From: Candidatus Methanoperedens sp.
GTDB taxonomy: Archaea > Halobacteriota > Methanosarcinia > Methanosarcinales > Methanoperedenaceae
NCBI GenBank assembly: GCA_027460585.1
Contig: JAPZAP010000104.1
Location: forward strand, 1 to 49,051
Direction of reading: 5' to 3'
Length of the DNA: 49,051 nt
Part shown: piece by piece, positions 10,733-38,316 of the stretch
Layout of the letters: each line of letters opens with the position of its first letter
How positions within the stretch are numbered: the first letter of the stretch is position 1
Notes under the pieces: model-generated
Databases searched by the model: none
Seen by the model: the letters and a program-made list of their open reading frames with translations, nothing else
Told to the model about the DNA's origin: nothing
Made by a program: the position numbers and the translations under genes

Positions 10733-13700
10733 ATGGTTAGTAATAAATTGTGCGGAGGGCATGCCCTCAGGATAGCGGTTGGAATAACTACGCTGGTATT
10801 GTTGATGGCGTGCGGGGCGGAGGCGCTTTCAAACAGGAATATATCGTCACAAGGTGATATTAATAATAGCTTTATTATGCATCGCCTGGATGCGGGGATA
10901 ACCTCTAATCGGGATTCAGGCATGATGTTCAGAAATGCAACCGGGGAGTTGACTTCAAAAGGATTGAAAGCTGAATCCCGCATTGGGCGCATACAAGAAA
11001 ACAAAAACCTTCATGTCAAGAGTATAGAAGAGGCGGCGGTTAGGATACCGGCATATTCAGATTGGTTCATCAACGACAATGCAACAGGCGGGGACTGCAT
11101 CTCTATTGGTACATGGAATGTTGTATCGAAGACTTGCACGCTGACAACTGACTTAACCAGAACAATAGAGATTGGTAGCGACAGCATAACCCTTGACGGC
11201 AATGGTCATACAATAACAGGAAGCAGCTCAAGTTACGGGATTTATCTTTCAGGAAGAAGTGGTGTCACGATAAAGAATACAAATGTCAGGTCCTTCTACT
11301 ACGGCATATATCTGGACCATTCCAATAACAATACACTGAGCGGTAACAATGCTTCGAACAATAGGGGAGGGGACGGCATAAATTTGTACGATTCCAATTA
11401 CAATATGCTAAGCGGCAATATTGCAAACTCGAACAACGATGACGGTATCGAATTGTACTCGTCCGGCAACAACACGCTAAGCGGCAACAAGGCGTCGAAC
11501 AATAGAGAAGGGGACGGCATATATTTGTGCGATTCCAATAACAACATGTTAAGCGGCAATAATGCGAACTCGAACAACGATGACGGCATCGAATTGTACT
11601 CGTCCGGCAACAATACGCTGAGCGGTAACAGTGCCTCGAATAACTCAAACGGCATATATCTGTACTATTCCAGCTACAACATACTCTTTAACAACACAAT
11701 GGAGGAAAATTCAATTAATTTTGGATTATTCGGATGGTCAGAGTCAGATTTTAACAACCAGATTGACTTTGGCAATACTGTAGATGGGAAGCCGGTATAT
11801 TATGTTAAAAATGGAAAGAATAATGTGTATGATTCTTCGACTAATGCAGGAACCTTCTACTGTATAAGCTGTCTAAATGTCACCATAAAAGATATAGGAT
11901 TATTAAAAAATGATGTCGGAATACTCTTCTGGAACACCACAAGTTCAAAAATACAAAACGTAACCGTTTCAAACAACGGCGACGGCATCGTTTTGTTAGA
12001 ATCCGGCAATAACACACTGAGCGGCAACAATGTTTACTCAAACGACTACGACGGCATCGAATTGTACTCGTCCGGCAGCAACACGCTAAGCGGCAACAAT
12101 GCCAACTTGAACGACTACGACGGCATATATCTGGAATCTTCCAGTTACAACACGCTAAGAGGCAACAATGCTACCTCGAACAACGACGATGGAATCGATT
12201 TGGACGATTCAAACAATAATACGATCAGCGGTAACAATGCCTCGAATAATTCCTACGGCATATATCTGTACGATTCGGGCAACAACATTCTCTTTAACAA
12301 TACAATGACAGCAAATTCATTTAATTTTGGTTTATCCGGATCGTCAGATTCAGACTTTAACAACCAGGTTGACTACAGCAATACTGTGGATGACAAGCCA
12401 ATATATTACGTTAAAAACGCAAACAATACTGTTTATGATTTTACGACCAATGCAGGAACCTTCTACTGCATAAGCTGTCTAAATGTCACCATAAAAGACA
12501 TGGAATTATCAAAAAATGAGGTCGGAATACTCTTCTGGAACACCTCCATTTCAAAAATACAAAATGTAACCGTTTCGAACAACTCTGAAGGCATCGTTTT
12601 GTTGGAGTCCGGCAACAGCACGCTGAGCAGAAACAATGCCTCGAACAACGGCGTCGGCATCGAATTGTACCTGTCCGGTAACAACACGATGAGCGACAAC
12701 AAAGTTAACTCAAACAACGACGCCGGCATCGTTTTGTTGGATTCCGGCAACAGCACGCTGAGCAGCAACAATGCTTCGAACAACTTTGACGGCATCGTTT
12801 TGTTGGATTCAAGCAAAAGCACGCTGAGCGGCAATATTGCGTCGAACAACGACGTCGGGATCGTTTTGTTACAGTCCGGCAGCAGCACGCTGAGCGGCAA
12901 CAATCTCTCAAACAGCTATGACGGCATCGTTTTGTTGGATTCCGGCAACAGCAGGCTGATCGACAACAATGCCTCGAATAACTCCTACGGCATATATCTG
13001 GAATATTCCAGCAACAACACGCTCAGCGGCAACAATGCTTCGAATAATACCTATGGAATATATATGGACTCTTCCAGCAACAACATGCTCTTTAACAACA
13101 CAATGACGGAAAATTCATTTAATTTTGGTTTATACGGATGGTCAGAGTCAGATTTTAACAACCAGATTGACTACAGCAATACGGTAGATGGTAAGCCGAT
13201 ATATTATGTTAAAAATGCAAAGAATACTGTTTATGATTCTTCGACCAATGCAGGAACCTTCTACTGCATAAGCTGTCTAAATGTCACCATAAAAGACATA
13301 GAATTACTAAGAAACGATGTCGGAATACTCTTCTGGAACACCACAAGTTCAAAAATACAAAACGTAAACGTTTCAAACAATGACGATGGCATCGTTTTGT
13401 TGGATTCCGGCAACAACATCCTGAGCGGCAACAATGTCAACTCGAACAAAGACGACGGCATATATCTGGACTCTTCCAGTAACAACACGCTAAGCGGCAA
13501 TAATGCTAACTTGAACCACGACGACGGCATGTATCTGGGCTATTCAAGCAACAACATGCTCAGAGGTAACAATGCTGACTCGAACAAAGACTTCGGCATA
13601 TACCTGGACAGTACCAGCAACAATATACTTTTTAACAACACAATGACAGAAAATTCATTCAATTTTGGTTTATATGGATGGTCAGATTCAGATTTTAATA

Positions 13701-15082
13701 ACCAGATTGACCGCACCAATACTGTAGATGGTAAGCCGATATATTACGTTAAAAATGCAATCAATACCGTTTATGATTCTTCGACAAATGCAGGAATCTT
13801 CTACTGCATAAGCTGTCTAAATGTCACCATAAAAGACATAGAGGTATTAAAAAACGATATCGGAATACTCTTCTGGAACACCACAAGTTCAAAAATACAA
13901 AACGTAACCATTTCAAACAACGACGACGGCATCGTTTTGTTGGAGTCCGGCAACAACATGCTGACTGGCAACAATATTAAATCGAACGACTATGACGGTA
14001 TATATATGGACTCTTCCAGTTACAACACGTTGAATGGCAACAATGTTAACTCGAACAACGACGCTGGCATCATTTTGTACGATTCAGGCAACAACCAAAT
14101 TTATGACAACGTATTTAACAACACTAACAATTTTTATTTAGACGAATCGGTAAGTATCTGGAACATCAAGAAAACACCGGGTACAAATATCATCGGCGGT
14201 TCATACCTGGGCGGCAACTTCTGGGCAAATCCATCTGGCACCGGCTTCAGCCAGACCTGCTCAGATGCAAATAGCGATGAGTTATGCGATTCAGAATATG
14301 TACTTGATAGTAACAATATAGATTATCTGCCGCTTTCAATGAACCTGGAAACTATAGTTCCACTGCCGATTGACCCGGCTACAGGTAAAGTAAATGCCAC
14401 GATCATCCCATTGTCAGGGAACGTATCAATAACAATTCCAAATGGAACGGTAGCCGTTGATGAAAATGGAAATTCACTGATAAATCTATCGATTGATACA
14501 AGTGTCAGTCTTACAACGAATGCTACCTTAAAATTGTCAGACAATGATGGGGTGACAGGATCTGCCATAGAGTTAAAACCCGAAGGCGCCAGGTTTGATC
14601 CGCCGATCCAGATAAGATTTAACTATTCTCATCCATTACCAGGAGGGGTCGATGAGAATAGCCTGACTGTCCGCTACTTTAACACCACTTTAAATGGTTG
14701 GGAAGTTATGCATACGGTTGAGCTTAATACGGCCCAAAATTATATAATAGCGAATATTTCCCATTTCAGTACATTTGCCCTGATTGGAACAAAACCCATA
14801 TCTGGCGGAGGAGGTGGAAGCAGCAGCGGCGGCACATACCCGCCAGGTTATGGCACCACTACAACAACGAAAACACCAGCACCAACAACGACTTCGGTGG
14901 CTACGGCAACACCGGCGTCGCAGAGTCCGGAAGTGCCCACGCAAACGGTCAAACCTGAAGTAACAGTGACAACAGCGACCCCGGCGCCAACAGCAAAATC
15001 GTCAGGTTTTGGAGCAATAATTGCTGTATTTGCAATAGCAATGATCGCCTCACTGTTAAAGAACAATAGAAATAGAAGATGA
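10733..15082 (+). CDS. Large secreted parallel beta-helix (NosD/CASH-like) surface protein with PGF-CTERM-like anchor
   Basis: 1449 residues. A signal peptide (hydrophobic stretch near residues 14-28) is followed by 'DNATGGDCISIGTWNVVSKTC..TTDL' and then about 1000 residues of right-handed beta-helix turns of the type SGNNTLSGNNASNN.DGIYL. The helix is interrupted four times by one ~100-residue module (FNFGL..W.ESDFNNQID..NTVDGKPIYYVKN .. GTFYCISCLNVTIKD .. GILFWNTTSSKIQN). A beta-sandwich-like domain spans roughly residues 1200-1350. A Gly/Ser then Thr/Pro-rich stalk leads to the tail SGFGAIIAVFAIAMIASLLKNNRNRR, a hydrophobic helix followed by Arg, close to the PGF-CTERM signal processed by archaeosortase. 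The role is probably cell-surface carbohydrate binding, adhesion or sheath structure; no catalytic residues can be named. Confidence 0.88.
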   Translation: MVSNKLCGGHALRIAVGITTLVLLMACGAEALSNRNISSQGDINNSFIMHRLDAGITSNRDSGMMFRNATGELTSKGLKAESRIGRIQENKNLHVKSIEEAAVRIPAYSDWFINDNATGGDCISIGTWNVVSKTCTLTTDLTRTIEIGSDSITLDGNGHTITGSSSSYGIYLSGRSGVTIKNTNVRSFYYGIYLDHSNNNTLSGNNASNNRGGDGINLYDSNYNMLSGNIANSNNDDGIELYSSGNNTLSGNKASNNREGDGIYLCDSNNNMLSGNNANSNNDDGIELYSSGNNTLSGNSASNNSNGIYLYYSSYNILFNNTMEENSINFGLFGWSESDFNNQIDFGNTVDGKPVYYVKNGKNNVYDSSTNAGTFYCISCLNVTIKDIGLLKNDVGILFWNTTSSKIQNVTVSNNGDGIVLLESGNNTLSGNNVYSNDYDGIELYSSGSNTLSGNNANLNDYDGIYLESSSYNTLRGNNATSNNDDGIDLDDSNNNTISGNNASNNSYGIYLYDSGNNILFNNTMTANSFNFGLSGSSDSDFNNQVDYSNTVDDKPIYYVKNANNTVYDFTTNAGTFYCISCLNVTIKDMELSKNEVGILFWNTSISKIQNVTVSNNSEGIVLLESGNSTLSRNNASNNGVGIELYLSGNNTMSDNKVNSNNDAGIVLLDSGNSTLSSNNASNNFDGIVLLDSSKSTLSGNIASNNDVGIVLLQSGSSTLSGNNLSNSYDGIVLLDSGNSRLIDNNASNNSYGIYLEYSSNNTLSGNNASNNTYGIYMDSSSNNMLFNNTMTENSFNFGLYGWSESDFNNQIDYSNTVDGKPIYYVKNAKNTVYDSSTNAGTFYCISCLNVTIKDIELLRNDVGILFWNTTSSKIQNVNVSNNDDGIVLLDSGNNILSGNNVNSNKDDGIYLDSSSNNTLSGNNANLNHDDGMYLGYSSNNMLRGNNADSNKDFGIYLDSTSNNILFNNTMTENSFNFGLYGWSDSDFNNQIDRTNTVDGKPIYYVKNAINTVYDSSTNAGIFYCISCLNVTIKDIEVLKNDIGILFWNTTSSKIQNVTISNNDDGIVLLESGNNMLTGNNIKSNDYDGIYMDSSSYNTLNGNNVNSNNDAGIILYDSGNNQIYDNVFNNTNNFYLDESVSIWNIKKTPGTNIIGGSYLGGNFWANPSGTGFSQTCSDANSDELCDSEYVLDSNNIDYLPLSMNLETIVPLPIDPATGKVNATIIPLSGNVSITIPNGTVAVDENGNSLINLSIDTSVSLTTNATLKLSDNDGVTGSAIELKPEGARFDPPIQIRFNYSHPLPGGVDENSLTVRYFNTTLNGWEVMHTVELNTAQNYIIANISHFSTFALIGTKPISGGGGGSSSGGTYPPGYGTTTTTKTPAPTTTSVATATPASQSPEVPTQTVKPEVTVTTATPAPTAKSSGFGAIIAVFAIAMIASLLKNNRNRR
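11680..13945 (+). repeat. Four copies of a ~300-bp module inside the beta-helix gene
   Basis: Near-identical blocks begin at about 11685, 12285, 13085 and 13625. Each runs from 'ctctttaacaa.acaatg' through the shared phrase 'GTFYCISCLNVTIKD' to 'aaaatacaaaa.gtaac'. Both DNA and protein are strongly conserved, while the short helix turns between them vary. This points to recent duplication or gene conversion. Each copy has two cysteines (CISC) that could form a disulfide. Confidence 0.8.
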
Positions 15083-31991: not shown

Positions 31992-34664
31992 ATGAAAATT
32001 TTGAAAAACAGAATTCTATTAGGAATAGGAATATTAATAATACTGCTAGCGCTGGCAGGAACAGGAAGCGCAAAAAGTGCTTACTCAGCAGCAGGAGCGG
32101 ATTGCGGCGTCTGTCATACGAGTATTGTTGATGGCAATTACACGTTAACAGCTGAAGGAAGCTATTTCAGGGACGTTCATAAATTCAACGGCAATACAGT
32201 ACCATCAAGCGCAAGCAGCTGTTTGACATGTCATCCTGACCTGACTTCATTCCTGCCGCTTACATCGGTTGGTTCATCATATAATCAAACTCACAGGTAT
32301 AATGCAGCCACACTGGCAGCTAAAATGTTACCAGTGCCCGGATGTGCGAACTGCCATGTGAATGCCATTGGTAACAATTTTAGTTTCATTACAGGCGCTC
32401 CAACATACCTGACATCTTCGGTATGCCAGGATTGCCACCCGGCGAAGTACAATAACTGGGCGAACACAACGCATGCTCATATGTTAACGCCAGCGGCTAA
32501 AGCCCAGACAATGGGACTTCCAACCCCGCCTGGTTATTCCTGGTCGGACATATCATATGTACTAGTAACCAAATTCCAATTGTCATATATCAACGCAACT
32601 GGATATTGGCTTGCCCAGAATAATACTTATAATACCGAAACACAGGCATGGGCAAATGGTGAAACTGCTGGTGGCAAATACACTTGTGCATCATGTCATA
32701 CAACTGGCTATAGTGCAACTGGTGTTAATAGCTTACCAGGCATTACCGGAACCTTTACAGAAACAGGAATTGCATGTGAGAGATGTCATGGACCGGCAGG
32801 CAACGGGCATCAGGTAACTGTTAATTATTCTGGAACTTTATGTACAGAATGCCATAGCGGTTCCCATCATGGAACTGGCTGGGAAAACAGTGCTCATGCG
32901 CCACCTGCACTTCAAAACCGTACATCCTGTACGAAATGTCATTCGCCGTTTGATAATTATCTAAATAATACTCCGACATTAGCAAAAGCTACAGATGTGT
33001 CGTGCGGTGTGTGCCACAATACACATGATATAACTGATATGAAATACGCAGATACATTCTCAAAAGGTATTTTCAATCAAACAGCCTGGTCTAAGCCTGC
33101 AAATGCAAAGTTAAGTTTCTTCAATGCAACTGCTTCAATTGCAGCGAAAACCGATGTCTTCGATGATCTGGCAATCCAGGTCCTGATAATACCTGGTAGC
33201 AGCTCACTTTTAGGCCCAATGAATCTTACAGGCAAGCCTGTTTCAGAAGTGCTGTGCTCCAAGTGCCATTTCAATCATGGATTAGACCATATGAAAGGGG
33301 TTCCACTGAGCCATGGCAAACCGGGTGAATGGGCAACTTGCACAGACTGTCATATGAGTGGAGCTAATGCAACTGTAGGTAGAGATATGATGGCGAACCA
33401 TGCGATGAATCCAAAGACATCATCGTCCTGTCTCCCTTGCCATAAGACTAATCCAGCAATAATCAGAGAGTGGACTGCAACCGCACACAACGACAAACAG
33501 GTAGCTGTAGGTACAGGCGGCCTCGGGCCTAACCATTTCTATGGTACTCTCAACACAACCACAGGCATCGCAAATGCACAACCAAATATGTGTCTCAAAT
33601 GCAAGGATCCGATGCACTTTAACCCTGCTATAGCGGAAAATGTAACTACCAAAATAAACCTGACTGATAGCTTCAGGGGTATTACATGTGCTGTTTGCCA
33701 TAACATCCACGACATGGCTGACTGGCTCAACAATACCAAAGCGGTTTACGGAGTGTCAAAGCCCTATGCTTGGTATAATGTTACTACAAAGAACTACACC
33801 ATGATGGCCAACACAACAGAGTTATGCGGCCACTGCCATGTGAATACCAGATATGGCAATACAGGCCCAGGCTGGGTAGCTGGTGCAGCCAACCCAATAG
33901 GGGCGCATGGTCTCCCCGCAGCGGACATGTTTGAAGGCTCATGGAAGCAGACAGGCTTTTTGAAATTTGAGTGCACCAGTTGTCATTTTGCAAAACAGAC
34001 AAGAAATTTCACGACTGGGGCAAGTTTGACAGCCGACGAGAGGATTGGAGGTCACTCATTCAAAGTGAACACGACTATATTGATGAACGGCACAGCATGT
34101 TCAAGCTGCCATGTAACAGGAAGCACACTTGGTAATCTGAGCTACACGATTAATAAAGTGAAGACAGATACTCAGGCTAAGTGGAATACCACCAACGCAA
34201 CAGTAATGGCTGCATTGGCAACCGTTAAGGCATATACCGGTGAGAAGAGTATGAGCCGTGATCAGATTGCTCAAGCATATTGGAACATCAAATTGTTTAC
34301 TTCAGGAGGAGCAACGAGCTGGGGTGTACATAATCCGACCAAAGCAAATGATCTCCTGGATCAAGCATCAGCACTGGCGACCTCTGCCGTTCAAAATCTT
34401 GGTGTGGCCAGCAGTTCAAGTGTGCAATTATATGCAGGCTGGAACCTTGTGTCGCTAAATGCAACACCGGCAAGTACATCACCAATATCTGTGATGTCTT
34501 CGGTATCGAGCAACTTGACTATTGTCTGGGGTCTGAATGCTGCGACCCAAACATGGGTAATGTATAACCCGGCAAGACCTGTCGATATGAATACATTGAC
34601 AAGTATGGCCAAGGGTGTAAGCTATGAGATAAAAGTAGCAAATAATTGTATGTGGACGGTTTAA
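31992..34664 (+). CDS. Secreted multiheme c-type cytochrome with 16 CxxCH and one CxxCK site (cassette 1)
   Basis: 890 residues. The signal peptide ends at 'GTGSAKSAYS' (about residue 28). Sixteen CxxCH motifs can be counted, from CGVCH near residue 39 to CSSCH near residue 705. A seventeenth site is CLKCK (C534-C537, Lys538), the motif type of the catalytic haem in NrfA nitrite reductase. The early part resembles cytochrome c554-like proteins ('VCQDCHPAKYNNWANTTHAHML', 'GIACERCHGPAGNGHQ'). The last ~80 residues form a haem-free domain ('GWNLVSLNATPASTSPISV..VWGLNAATQTW'). The start is drawn at ATG 31992, but GGAGATGA placed 5 bases before TTG 32001 may mark the true start. A likely extracellular electron carrier or reductase. 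Confidence 0.93.
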   Translation: MKILKNRILLGIGILIILLALAGTGSAKSAYSAAGADCGVCHTSIVDGNYTLTAEGSYFRDVHKFNGNTVPSSASSCLTCHPDLTSFLPLTSVGSSYNQTHRYNAATLAAKMLPVPGCANCHVNAIGNNFSFITGAPTYLTSSVCQDCHPAKYNNWANTTHAHMLTPAAKAQTMGLPTPPGYSWSDISYVLVTKFQLSYINATGYWLAQNNTYNTETQAWANGETAGGKYTCASCHTTGYSATGVNSLPGITGTFTETGIACERCHGPAGNGHQVTVNYSGTLCTECHSGSHHGTGWENSAHAPPALQNRTSCTKCHSPFDNYLNNTPTLAKATDVSCGVCHNTHDITDMKYADTFSKGIFNQTAWSKPANAKLSFFNATASIAAKTDVFDDLAIQVLIIPGSSSLLGPMNLTGKPVSEVLCSKCHFNHGLDHMKGVPLSHGKPGEWATCTDCHMSGANATVGRDMMANHAMNPKTSSSCLPCHKTNPAIIREWTATAHNDKQVAVGTGGLGPNHFYGTLNTTTGIANAQPNMCLKCKDPMHFNPAIAENVTTKINLTDSFRGITCAVCHNIHDMADWLNNTKAVYGVSKPYAWYNVTTKNYTMMANTTELCGHCHVNTRYGNTGPGWVAGAANPIGAHGLPAADMFEGSWKQTGFLKFECTSCHFAKQTRNFTTGASLTADERIGGHSFKVNTTILMNGTACSSCHVTGSTLGNLSYTINKVKTDTQAKWNTTNATVMAALATVKAYTGEKSMSRDQIAQAYWNIKLFTSGGATSWGVHNPTKANDLLDQASALATSAVQNLGVASSSSVQLYAGWNLVSLNATPASTSPISVMSSVSSNLTIVWGLNAATQTWVMYNPARPVDMNTLTSMAKGVSYEIKVANNCMWTV

Positions 34665-35628: not shown

Positions 35629-38316
35629 ATGAAAAATGTGAAAAAAAGATTTGTATTAGGAATAGGAATTTTAATTTTACTGCTGGCGCTGGCAGGAACA
35701 GGAAGCGCGAAAAGTGCTTACTCGGGAGCAGATTGCGGCGTCTGTCATGTAAGCATTGTGGGTGGCGATTATACATTAACATCTGATGGAAGCTATTTCA
35801 GGGATGTTCATAAATTCAACGGAAATACAGTCCCTTCAAGTGCAAGCAGCTGTCTGACATGTCATCCTGACATGACTTCATTCCTGCCGCTTACATCGGT
35901 TGGTTCATCATATAATCAAACTCACAGGTATAATGCAACCACGCTGGCAGCTAAAATGTTACCAGTGCCCGGTTGTGCGAACTGCCATGTGAATGCCGTT
36001 GCTAACAATTTTAGTTTCATTACAGGTACTCCAACATACCTGACATCTTCTGTATGCCAGGATTGCCATAAACCAAAATATGACAATTGGACCAATACAT
36101 TGCATCGTGTAATGTTAACGCCGAAGGATAAAGCCCAGGCAATGGGACTTCCAACTCCTCCAGGTGGCTGGGCGGGCATATCCTATGTAGTTGTATCCAA
36201 ATTCGCATTTGCATATATCAACACAACTGGATATTTCCTTGCTACGAATGATACATATAATACTGAAACTGAAGAGTTTGAAAATGGTCATGCAGGCGCA
36301 GCGTACGGCACCTGTGGAAGATGCCATACTACTGGCTGGGATACGAGCAGTAAACTCTTACCAGGCTTTGCCGGAACCTTTGCCGAGCCGGGAATTGGCT
36401 GTGAGAGATGTCATAAACCAGGAGGCAACGGGCATCAGGTAGTTGTGAATTATTCCGGAACTTTATGTACTGAATGCCACACTGGTGGAAATCATGGAAC
36501 AGGCTGGGAAAACAGCGAACATGCGCCACCTCCATATGAGATCGGCAGCAGTTGTATGTTCTGTCATTCCTCGTTTGATCAATATAAAAATCAGAATGCG
36601 AGTTTTGCTAACGCGACAGGCGTATCGTGCGGAGTATGTCACAATATCCATGATATGACAGATAGCAAATATGCGGCAACATTCTCGCAAGGCACCTTCA
36701 ATCCAACAACATGGTCAAAGGTCGCAGATTCGAAATTAGCTTTCTTCAATGCAACTGCTTCACTAGCAGCAGGCACAGATGTTTTCGATAACCTTTCCAC
36801 AATAACCTCGTTATATCCTGGAACGATTTCCGACAGGAAAGATGCAAGCTATGGTACAGCGCCAATAAATCTCACAGGTCGTCCTGTATCAGAAGTACTG
36901 TGCTCAGAGTGCCATTACAGGCATGGGATAGCCCATATTGCAGGGGTTAACCTGACACATGGCGCCCCAAGTCGGAAAGCAACCTGCACAGACTGCCACA
37001 TGAGTGGATATAATGCTGCGGTGGGTAAAGATTTGATGAAGAATCATGCGATGGACCCACTGACACCAACATCCTGCAAGTGCCACTCGTCGGTACCTGC
37101 ATTAATTAAAGAATGGAACAGAAGCGTACATAACGATAAAGTAGTTGGATTAAGTGGCGGTGCTAACCATTTCTTTGGTACTCTCAACAAAACCACAGGC
37201 GTCGCTAGTGCACAACCAAATTCCTGCCTCAAATGCAAGGATCCGATGAACTGGAACCCTGCTATAGCAGAAAATGTAACTACCAAAGTAAACCTGACTG
37301 ATAGCTTCAAGGGTATTACATGTGCGGTTTGCCATAACATCCACGACATGGGTGACTGGCTCGCCAAGACAAAAGCGATGTTCGGAGCTTCAAAGCCCTA
37401 TGCATGGTATAATAAGGATGCAATTTTGACCGGAACCCGGTTCAAAGCAAACTACACCATAGAGGAATCAACAACAGAGCTATGCGGCAACTGTCATTCG
37501 AATATCAGATATGGCAGTACAGGCCCGGGCTGGGCAAGTGCTACTGCAACTTCCCCAATAAAGCCACACGGATTCCCGGCAAAGGACTTGTTCGTTGGCT
37601 CGTGGAAGGAGACGGGCTTGTTGAAATTTGAGTGTGTCGATTGTCATTTTGCAAAAATGAGCAGAGACGCGAATGGGACAAGTCTGCCTGCCGACAAGAG
37701 GGTAGTAGGTCACTCATTTAAAGTGAACACTACTATACTGATGAACGGCACAAAATGTTCAAGCTGCCATGTAACCGGAAGCGAACTGGGCAACCTGAGC
37801 ACCACGATCGAGGATGTACAGGACGAAACCCACGCTAAGTGGAACAGCACAAACGCAATCGTTTCAGGCGCATTGGCAAATTATAATGCATATAACGGTA
37901 CGAAGAACTTCAGCCGTACATTGATTGCCCAGGCGTACTGGAATGTACAATGGGTGTCATCAGATGAAAGCTGGGGTGTACATAATCCATCCAAAGTAAA
38001 TGATCTTCTGGATCAAGCTGTAGCACTGGCGATATCTTCGAACCAGTCTCTTGGCATGGCCGGCAGTTCAAATGTGCAATTATATAAAGGTTGGAACCTT
38101 GTGTCGTTAAACGCAACACCAGCAAGTACATCACCAATATCGGTAATGTCTTCGGTATCGGGCAATTTGAATATTGTCTGGGGCCTGAATGCTGCAACCC
38201 AAACATGGGTAATGTATAACCCGGCAAGACCTGCCGATATGAATACCTTGACGAGTATGGTCAAGGGTGTAAGCTATGAGATAAAAGTAGCGAATAATTG
38301 TATATGGACGGTTTAA
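35629..38316 (+). CDS. Secreted multiheme c-type cytochrome with 15 CxxCH, one CxCH and one CxxCK site (cassette 2)
   Basis: 895 residues, a close paralogue of the cytochrome at 31992 along its whole length. It has the same signal peptide, the same order of haem sites and the same haem-free C-terminal domain. Fifteen CxxCH motifs are intact. The site equal to CLPCH of the paralogue is CKCH (C483, C485, H486), one residue shorter and perhaps not haem-binding. CLKCK is kept (C533-C536, Lys537). The middle region (about residues 370-430) differs most. ATG 35629 is drawn, but GGAGATGA 5 bases before GTG 35638 suggests that start. Probably extracellular, with electron-transfer or reductase function. 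Confidence 0.93.
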   Translation: MKNVKKRFVLGIGILILLLALAGTGSAKSAYSGADCGVCHVSIVGGDYTLTSDGSYFRDVHKFNGNTVPSSASSCLTCHPDMTSFLPLTSVGSSYNQTHRYNATTLAAKMLPVPGCANCHVNAVANNFSFITGTPTYLTSSVCQDCHKPKYDNWTNTLHRVMLTPKDKAQAMGLPTPPGGWAGISYVVVSKFAFAYINTTGYFLATNDTYNTETEEFENGHAGAAYGTCGRCHTTGWDTSSKLLPGFAGTFAEPGIGCERCHKPGGNGHQVVVNYSGTLCTECHTGGNHGTGWENSEHAPPPYEIGSSCMFCHSSFDQYKNQNASFANATGVSCGVCHNIHDMTDSKYAATFSQGTFNPTTWSKVADSKLAFFNATASLAAGTDVFDNLSTITSLYPGTISDRKDASYGTAPINLTGRPVSEVLCSECHYRHGIAHIAGVNLTHGAPSRKATCTDCHMSGYNAAVGKDLMKNHAMDPLTPTSCKCHSSVPALIKEWNRSVHNDKVVGLSGGANHFFGTLNKTTGVASAQPNSCLKCKDPMNWNPAIAENVTTKVNLTDSFKGITCAVCHNIHDMGDWLAKTKAMFGASKPYAWYNKDAILTGTRFKANYTIEESTTELCGNCHSNIRYGSTGPGWASATATSPIKPHGFPAKDLFVGSWKETGLLKFECVDCHFAKMSRDANGTSLPADKRVVGHSFKVNTTILMNGTKCSSCHVTGSELGNLSTTIEDVQDETHAKWNSTNAIVSGALANYNAYNGTKNFSRTLIAQAYWNVQWVSSDESWGVHNPSKVNDLLDQAVALAISSNQSLGMAGSSNVQLYKGWNLVSLNATPASTSPISVMSSVSGNLNIVWGLNAATQTWVMYNPARPADMNTLTSMVKGVSYEIKVANNCIWTV

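Follow-up and report, generated by a model that had tools for sequence, protein, structure and literature searches.

What does a single CxxCK haem motif signify in a large multihaem cytochrome of Candidatus Methanoperedens? ANME-2d archaea export electrons via many cytochromes, the roles of which are mostly guesses. Two paralogous cytochrome genes, here P1 and P2, lie in the window, by which we mean the whole 49,051-nucleotide stretch analyzed (contig C104 of genome G000; the genome is 2.47 Mb and 84% complete). A preliminary description noted CLKCKDPM in both proteins, equated it with the catalytic haem motif of the nitrite reductase NrfA, and took its presence in both copies as a sign of a special haem and possibly of an enzyme rather than only a wire. 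The analysis below suggests that the odd Lys motif marks what looks like an open haem inherited by a protein of electron export, and that it is not proof of an enzyme.

The CxxCK site and its genes

The motif is present in frame in both open reading frames, as originally described: TGTCTCAAATGCAAG (33591-33605, + strand) encodes CLKCKDPM of P1 (residues 534-541) and TGCCTCAAATGCAAG (37225-37239, + strand) that of P2 (residues 533-540). As a bare DNA pattern, CxxCK occurs nine times in the window against an expectation of 4.66 ± 1.85, little above chance; the meaning of the motif rests on its position in alignments. Each cytochrome gene is followed by one for a small secreted protein, and as both proteins are close copies, a two-gene cassette appears to have been duplicated (Table 1). 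The terminal tails of the two small proteins resemble that of a 1449-aa NosD/beta-helix surface protein encoded at 10733-15082 (+ strand).

Table 1. Features of the two cytochrome cassettes in the window.
Feature	Position	Strand	Remarks
P1	31992..34664	+	890 aa, secreted cytochrome, 16 CxxCH + 1 CxxCK
OcwA-like N-terminal stretch, P1	32379..33035	+	about residues 130-348, from haem 4; A2 profile match
Haems 8-12 of P1	32913..33446	+	putative second, degenerate NrfA-like core; CxxCH at haem-1 position
NrfA-like pentahaem core and C-terminal helix bundle, P1	33447..34427	+	residues 486-812, modelled stretch
CLKCK haem motif of P1	33591..33605	+	residues 534-538; haem 13 of 17; NrfA haem-1 position by alignment
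Arg620 of P1	33849..33851	+	adjoins haem 15; R 23/24, K 1/24
His639 of P1	33906..33908	+	invariant 24/24; candidate distal-pocket His
Small secreted protein paired with P1	34695..35324	+	CarboxypepD_reg-like, PGF-CTERM-like tail; both Pfam matches just under cut-off
P2	35629..38316	+	895-aa paralogue, 15 CxxCH + 1 CxxCK + CXCH at haem-12 site
NrfA-like pentahaem core, P2	37102..38073	+	counterpart of P1 core
CLKCK haem motif of P2	37225..37239	+	residues 533-537; same position as in P1
Small secreted protein paired with P2	38347..38973	+	second cassette copy

Full-length relatives were collected by profile from 118 related genomes at more than 400 bits, giving a family of 24 that includes P1 and P2. 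An alignment scan of the genome contigs returned 79 loci; the same scan with a single protein as query returned no match, nor did tblastn against plasmids.

The last five haems form an NrfA-like core

In all 24 family members, the last five haems and the helices behind them match PF02335 (Cytochrom_C552, the NrfA family). Among solved structures, the core profile matches OcwA (E = 9.6e-09) and Geobacter NrfA (1.4e-08 and 3.5e-07), as well as Desulfovibrio NrfA, octahaem nitrite reductase and MccA. Matches to photosynthetic reaction-centre cytochromes (2.8e-06 and weaker) are probably due to the haem motifs alone.

An AlphaFold2 model of P1 residues 486-812, built without haem from 54 aligned rows, reached a pLDDT of 82.1 and a pTM of 0.80; a full-length model from 24 rows (pLDDT 44.8) was set aside. 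The top Foldseek matches of the core model are octahaem nitrite reductases, OcwA and NrfA, with a TM-score of about 0.5 and an rmsd of 6-9 Å. With VIA-align, the whole core model gave Z-scores of 15.4-17.3 to NrfA and octahaem nitrite reductases, 13.5 to OcwA, 12.3 to 6qvm, 10.5 to MccA and 7.5 to HAO.

Profile-profile alignment with the three genuine Methanoperedens NrfAs (L084-L086) places CLKCK on the NrfA CxxCK (E = 1.1e-12), and CLKCK also aligns with the CAKCK of the giant modules described below. Four of the 22 single-domain relatives (L076, L081, L092 and L100) were left out of the A3 alignment; five octahaem-like rows were used in the alignment with NrfA and six in the core-only tree. 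Haem 1 of NrfA is its catalytic haem, and by this alignment the CLKCK motif corresponds to it. The proposed link to the NrfA catalytic motif is thus upheld for position: the motif sits at haem 1 of a real NrfA-like pentahaem domain (PF02335 in 24/24, Z 15-17).

Active-site residues

The residues essential in NrfA include Lys126, Arg106, Tyr216, Gln263, His264, Glu215 and Lys261, with R106 and Y216 in E. coli numbering (PMC4683180, in extract). In the family, the Arg106 column holds Ser in 21 and Thr in three of 24 rows, with an Arg one residue later in four; the Tyr216 column holds Ile, Pro, Val, Thr, Lys, Ala or a gap in every row; and the column of Glu215, at the Ca site, is Asn or Ser. The KxQ before His639 is absent from the family, with Gln at 638 in one of 24. 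All three Methanoperedens NrfAs carry both the Tyr and the Arg.

His639 lies in the stretch that holds His264 of NrfA and the His pair of OcwA. Automatic alignments place it two columns off the NrfA residue, so its equivalence to His264 is regional only. Searching for the NrfA set of His, Tyr and Arg yielded one His in the right region; Arg, Tyr and the Ca-site Glu are missing from the columns where NrfA has them. His639 may in turn be a ligand of haem 13, and Arg620 (Arg in 23 of 24) may be a further candidate active-site residue. Neighbouring haems could draw their distal ligands from the other invariant His residues (499, 573, 688 and 780). A His-His pair over the counterpart of OcwA haem 5 was not found in P1 or P2, which have the single His639; the pair is present in the shorter OcwA-like relatives L073, L079, L083 and L094.

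The last haem seems to have lost its distal His. Position 651 of P1, which from the ligand order we take to be that of the NrfA haem-5 distal His, is Trp, Phe, Pro, Tyr or Val across the family, and the adjoining Lys652 is invariant (33942-33947). Lys652 as the distal ligand of haem 17 was considered and set aside, because the giant cytochromes keep a Lys there beside their own His.

Lys and His exchange at one haem

Both cysteines of the CxxCK site are kept in all 24 family members, and next to the second one stands His in 20 and Lys in four (P1, P2, L006 from G022 and L041 from G028), with no other residue seen. Among the named genomes, His is found in M. nitroreducens ANME-2d, BLZ2 and FeB_1, among others, and Lys solely in Methanoperedenaceae clean1623 (L041). 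As a control, the other 16 haem sites read His in 378 of 378 cases in which both cysteines are present, the rows being related to each other; Lys thus arises at one particular haem only.

P1 and P2 form a sister pair of tandem duplicates (support 100/99, 72% aligned identity), and their agreement is accordingly weak evidence of constraint. The four Lys rows form one group in the full-length tree with weak support (77/70), and in the core-only tree the His-bearing L003 is sister to P1 and P2 (95/87); as the trees differ, one or two His/Lys changes are implied. Lys is nested in a His background, and the NrfA, octahaem and giant-module relatives carry Lys. From these sequences, the site likely went from Lys to His and back to Lys, or was exchanged repeatedly.

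Conservation of the Lys, on which the preliminary description leaned, does not hold: 20 of 24 relatives have His, and the agreement of two sister copies says little. Homologues that replace the Lys do exist, although within the 24 the replacement is always His. What survives of the special haem is the confinement of Lys to this one site (0/378 elsewhere), not the argument from conservation.

Assembly error as the source of the Lys was rejected, as it occurs in both copies and again in two further genomes, and so was a convergent chance motif, the position being homologous. Among five OcwA-like proteins of 445-470 aa of the same order, the haem-1 position is Met in L073, Gln in L094 and His in three.

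Giant cytochromes with tandem CxxCK modules

At E ≤ 1e-20, the giant-module profile A4 identified 16 stretches of giant type, spread over 10 of the 118 relatives; a 17th match at this threshold is a member of the window family. When 392 genomes were drawn evenly from the phylum, four had a match at E ≤ 1e-8, all of them from the same genus or G034, with G000 and G022 matching via the window family only. The site is covered by 15 of the 16 stretches, all of which read CA[KR]CKSP; the G023 match begins past the site and was left uncounted.

Two contigs, G009:C44 and G005:C19 (L097, L072 and L199), each carry three tandem CxxCK modules about 420 residues apart. The eight tabulated giant ORFs contain 12 CxxCK motifs, all at this site, versus 164 CxxCH, these haem counts being partial as several of the ORFs are cut by locus ends. 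Large multihaem ORFs without any CxxCK (L037, L038 and L040) were not counted as giants. No giant module was found at 1e-20 in the Lys-type genomes G000, G022 and G028 (G000 being 84% and G028 68% complete).

Rest of the protein and known systems

Positions 130-348 of the A2 profile match OcwA residues 14-322, and positions 130-341 match 6qvm residues 221-437; the front part of P1 and P2 hence resembles the c554-like half of OcwA. The A1 profile matches 32913-33149 in the haems 8-12 region of P1 (E = 4.5e-7), and from the haem order the remainder of that stretch may be a second NrfA-like core. P1 and P2 could then be regarded as OcwA-like proteins in which the NrfA-type core has been duplicated. 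The N-terminal two thirds of P1 and P2 have weak relatives only. Neither an S-layer domain (PF07752) nor a pectin-lyase domain was found in either protein. The PGF-CTERM match (Table 1) is below its cut-off.

The closest known architecture is that of OcwA from Thermincola potens (6i5b), a cell-surface protein of extracellular electron transfer with a c554-like front and an NrfA-like pentahaem end, whose haem 5 is at the position of the P1/P2 CxxCK haem. OcwA is bacterial and has nine haems rather than 17, haems 1-3 and 8-12 of P1 and P2 being extra. As an OcwA-type surface reductase it has two five-coordinate haems, 2 and 5. Haem 5, the counterpart of NrfA haem 1, is a five-coordinate CxxCH haem; OcwA reduces nitrite at about one per min and both reduces and oxidizes hydroxylamine (PMC6703420, in extract). 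Unlike P1 and P2, it has a CxxCH motif at the open haem and a pair of His residues above it, and the extract of that paper reports no Lys variant (PMC6703420).

NrfA (PF02335) shares the five-haem order, the three-helix C-terminus and CxxCK at haem 1 with the core (Z 15-17). However, the P1/P2 core is fused behind 12 more haems and lacks the Arg, Tyr and Ca ligands of NrfA, most P1/P2 relatives have His for Lys, and the neighbouring ORFs that were read in the window include no NrfH. Octahaem nitrite reductase (TvNiR, 8rv0) is the best fold match (Z 16.6-17.3) and likewise has a catalytic-haem Lys (PMC12285233, in extract), but it has 3+5 haems, a Tyr-based active site and different extra haems. 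The undecahaem S-layer cytochrome of Carboxydothermus ferrireducens, 6qvm, which is probably OmhA judging from title, haem number and host, is also a surface protein of extracellular electron transfer and matches both the front and the core of P1 and P2 (Z 12.3), with 11 haems in place of 17. The large ANME cytochromes MHC-A/B/C are from the same host group, extracellular and rich in haems (PMC9012536, in extract); P1 and P2 differ from them in having no S-layer or pectin-lyase domain. In the extract of that paper, CxxCK is mentioned once, for NrfE/NrfA (PMC9012536). In one Methanoperedens genome, 15 of 33 multihaem genes were upregulated on electrodes (PMC10874420, in extract). Among the papers that our searches of an open-access library listed, none describes CxxCK beyond NrfA in these organisms.

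Genome context and haem maturation

The flanks of 19 named relatives (L101-L119) were surveyed. A small surface-type protein is encoded beside the gene in 11, and these coincide exactly with the relatives whose C-terminus is short; the remaining eight have a longer tail or meet a contig end (L107, L109 and L113 run off), and all are without the small protein. The eight tails were searched, and seven gave Ig-like, SdrD_B, CHRD, FG-GAP or similar matches, weak to strong, with none in L032. The small protein accompanies 11 of 11 short-form and none of eight long-form or truncated cytochromes, as if the anchor were either separate or fused. S-layer-domain multihaem ORFs lie in the flanks of five of the 19 (L105, L110, L114, L115 and L119).

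A PF02335 search of the window genome (84% complete) detected no NrfA beyond P1 and P2, with weak partial matches in other multihaem proteins, and G022 and G028 likewise gave no separate NrfA by PF02335. No NarG scored over the cut-off in the window genome; a 959-aa frame on contig C60 gives piecemeal matches to the NarG model, the best scoring 206 bits against a cut-off of 1084. The lack of a separate NrfA match and of a NarG over cut-off in the window genome, which is incomplete, favours electron export over nitrite respiration.

In E. coli the CxxCK of NrfA requires NrfEFG for its maturation and in Wolinella NrfI, whereas CcmF/CcmI of the plain Ccm system apparently suffice in Shewanella (PMC12285233, in extract). 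The window genome encodes CcmC, a 781-aa CcmF/NrfE-family protein (226 bits to TIGR03145) and two short CcmF-like proteins of 326-328 aa. The search for a CxxCK-capable lyase thus yielded one CcmF/NrfE-family and two short CcmF-like proteins, candidates at most; on sequence grounds, such a lyase is possible in this genome. PF01578 counts were positive in 31 of 31 genomes (1 to 11 each), of which G000 was the only Lys genome, and provided no usable link to CxxCK.

Function of haem 13

Position, homology, predicted fold and the Lys/His distribution together make it fairly probable that P1 and P2 are OcwA-like surface electron-transfer cytochromes with an NrfA-type haem 13 that is ligated by Lys or His and is open or weakly closed distally. 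They would be 17-haem proteins of extracellular electron transfer, secreted and probably anchored at the surface, with the C-terminal five haems as an NrfA-derived core behind an OcwA/c554-like front. Haem 13, presumably the former NrfA active-site haem, is most likely still covalently bound, and its proximal ligand would be the motif Lys or His, the two being exchangeable. Its distal side may be open or weakly closed near His639. Electrons would come in along the haem chain and exit at exposed haem 13, as proposed for OcwA, and reduction of nitrite, NO or hydroxylamine would be a side activity at most. Since a CxxCH version of true NrfA also works (PMC12285233, in extract), Lys/His exchange need not end catalysis, and the His-to-Lys swap among close relatives could be neutral.

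It is rather unlikely that haem 13 is just one more wire haem, six-coordinate through Lys or His and His639 or another ligand, with Lys/His exchange as neutral drift or potential tuning. The interchange of the two residues among close relatives, the missing NrfA Arg, Tyr and Ca residues and the invariant His near the expected distal site would all suit such a haem. However, no other haem of the family has Lys and the giants have it at this site only (15/15), consistent with a site freed from bis-His ligation, and the OcwA counterpart haem is open (PMC6703420, in extract). The early suggestion of an enzyme rather than only a wire is sustained in part: the NrfA-like core and the confinement of Lys to the catalytic-haem position speak for it, while the absent NrfA Arg, Tyr and Ca residues and the His of most relatives do not.

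That P1 and P2 are true NrfA-type nitrite reductases, reducing nitrite to ammonium, is very unlikely. CxxCK does occupy the NrfA catalytic position within an NrfA fold, and OcwA weakly reduces nitrite (PMC6703420, in extract), but counterparts of Arg106, Tyr216, Glu215 and KxQ are absent, no NrfA model is among the NCBIfam families listed at E ≤ 0.01, no NarG over cut-off is present in the window genome to supply nitrite, and Lys is lost in 20 of 24 relatives. Least probable is that the motif binds no haem, its cysteines being free or disulfide-bonded because the host Ccm could not handle Lys: E. coli and Wolinella do need the special lyases NrfE and NrfI (PMC12285233, in extract) and the short CcmF-like proteins encoded here are at most candidate CxxCK lyases, but all 24 members retain the two cysteines together with the entire haem fold, Shewanella apparently matures CxxCK by plain Ccm (PMC12285233) and the genome has a CcmF/NrfE-family protein (226 bits to TIGR03145).

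CxxCK by itself is accordingly no marker of nitrite reductase. The family and the giants with tandem modules are tied to the NrfA/OcwA fold, which offers a structural template; one haem of seventeen is singled out as the likely open site; and natural Lys/His variants of one protein provide a means to probe the role of the proximal Lys. More speculatively, and with considerable doubt, Methanoperedens may reuse the NrfA catalytic core as a module for extracellular electron transfer, with one intact core and its Lys-ligated open haem in P1 and P2 and up to three CxxCK cores per giant, whose several enzyme-like open haems would let these surface proteins directly reduce small molecules or minerals, the genomes of P1/P2 type showing no NrfA.

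Spacing also drifts at the haem just before the core. Twenty of the 24 family members read CX5CH at haem 12; the spacing is CX4CH in L004, CX2CH in P1 (residues 480-484, 33429-33443) and L041, and CX1CH in P2.
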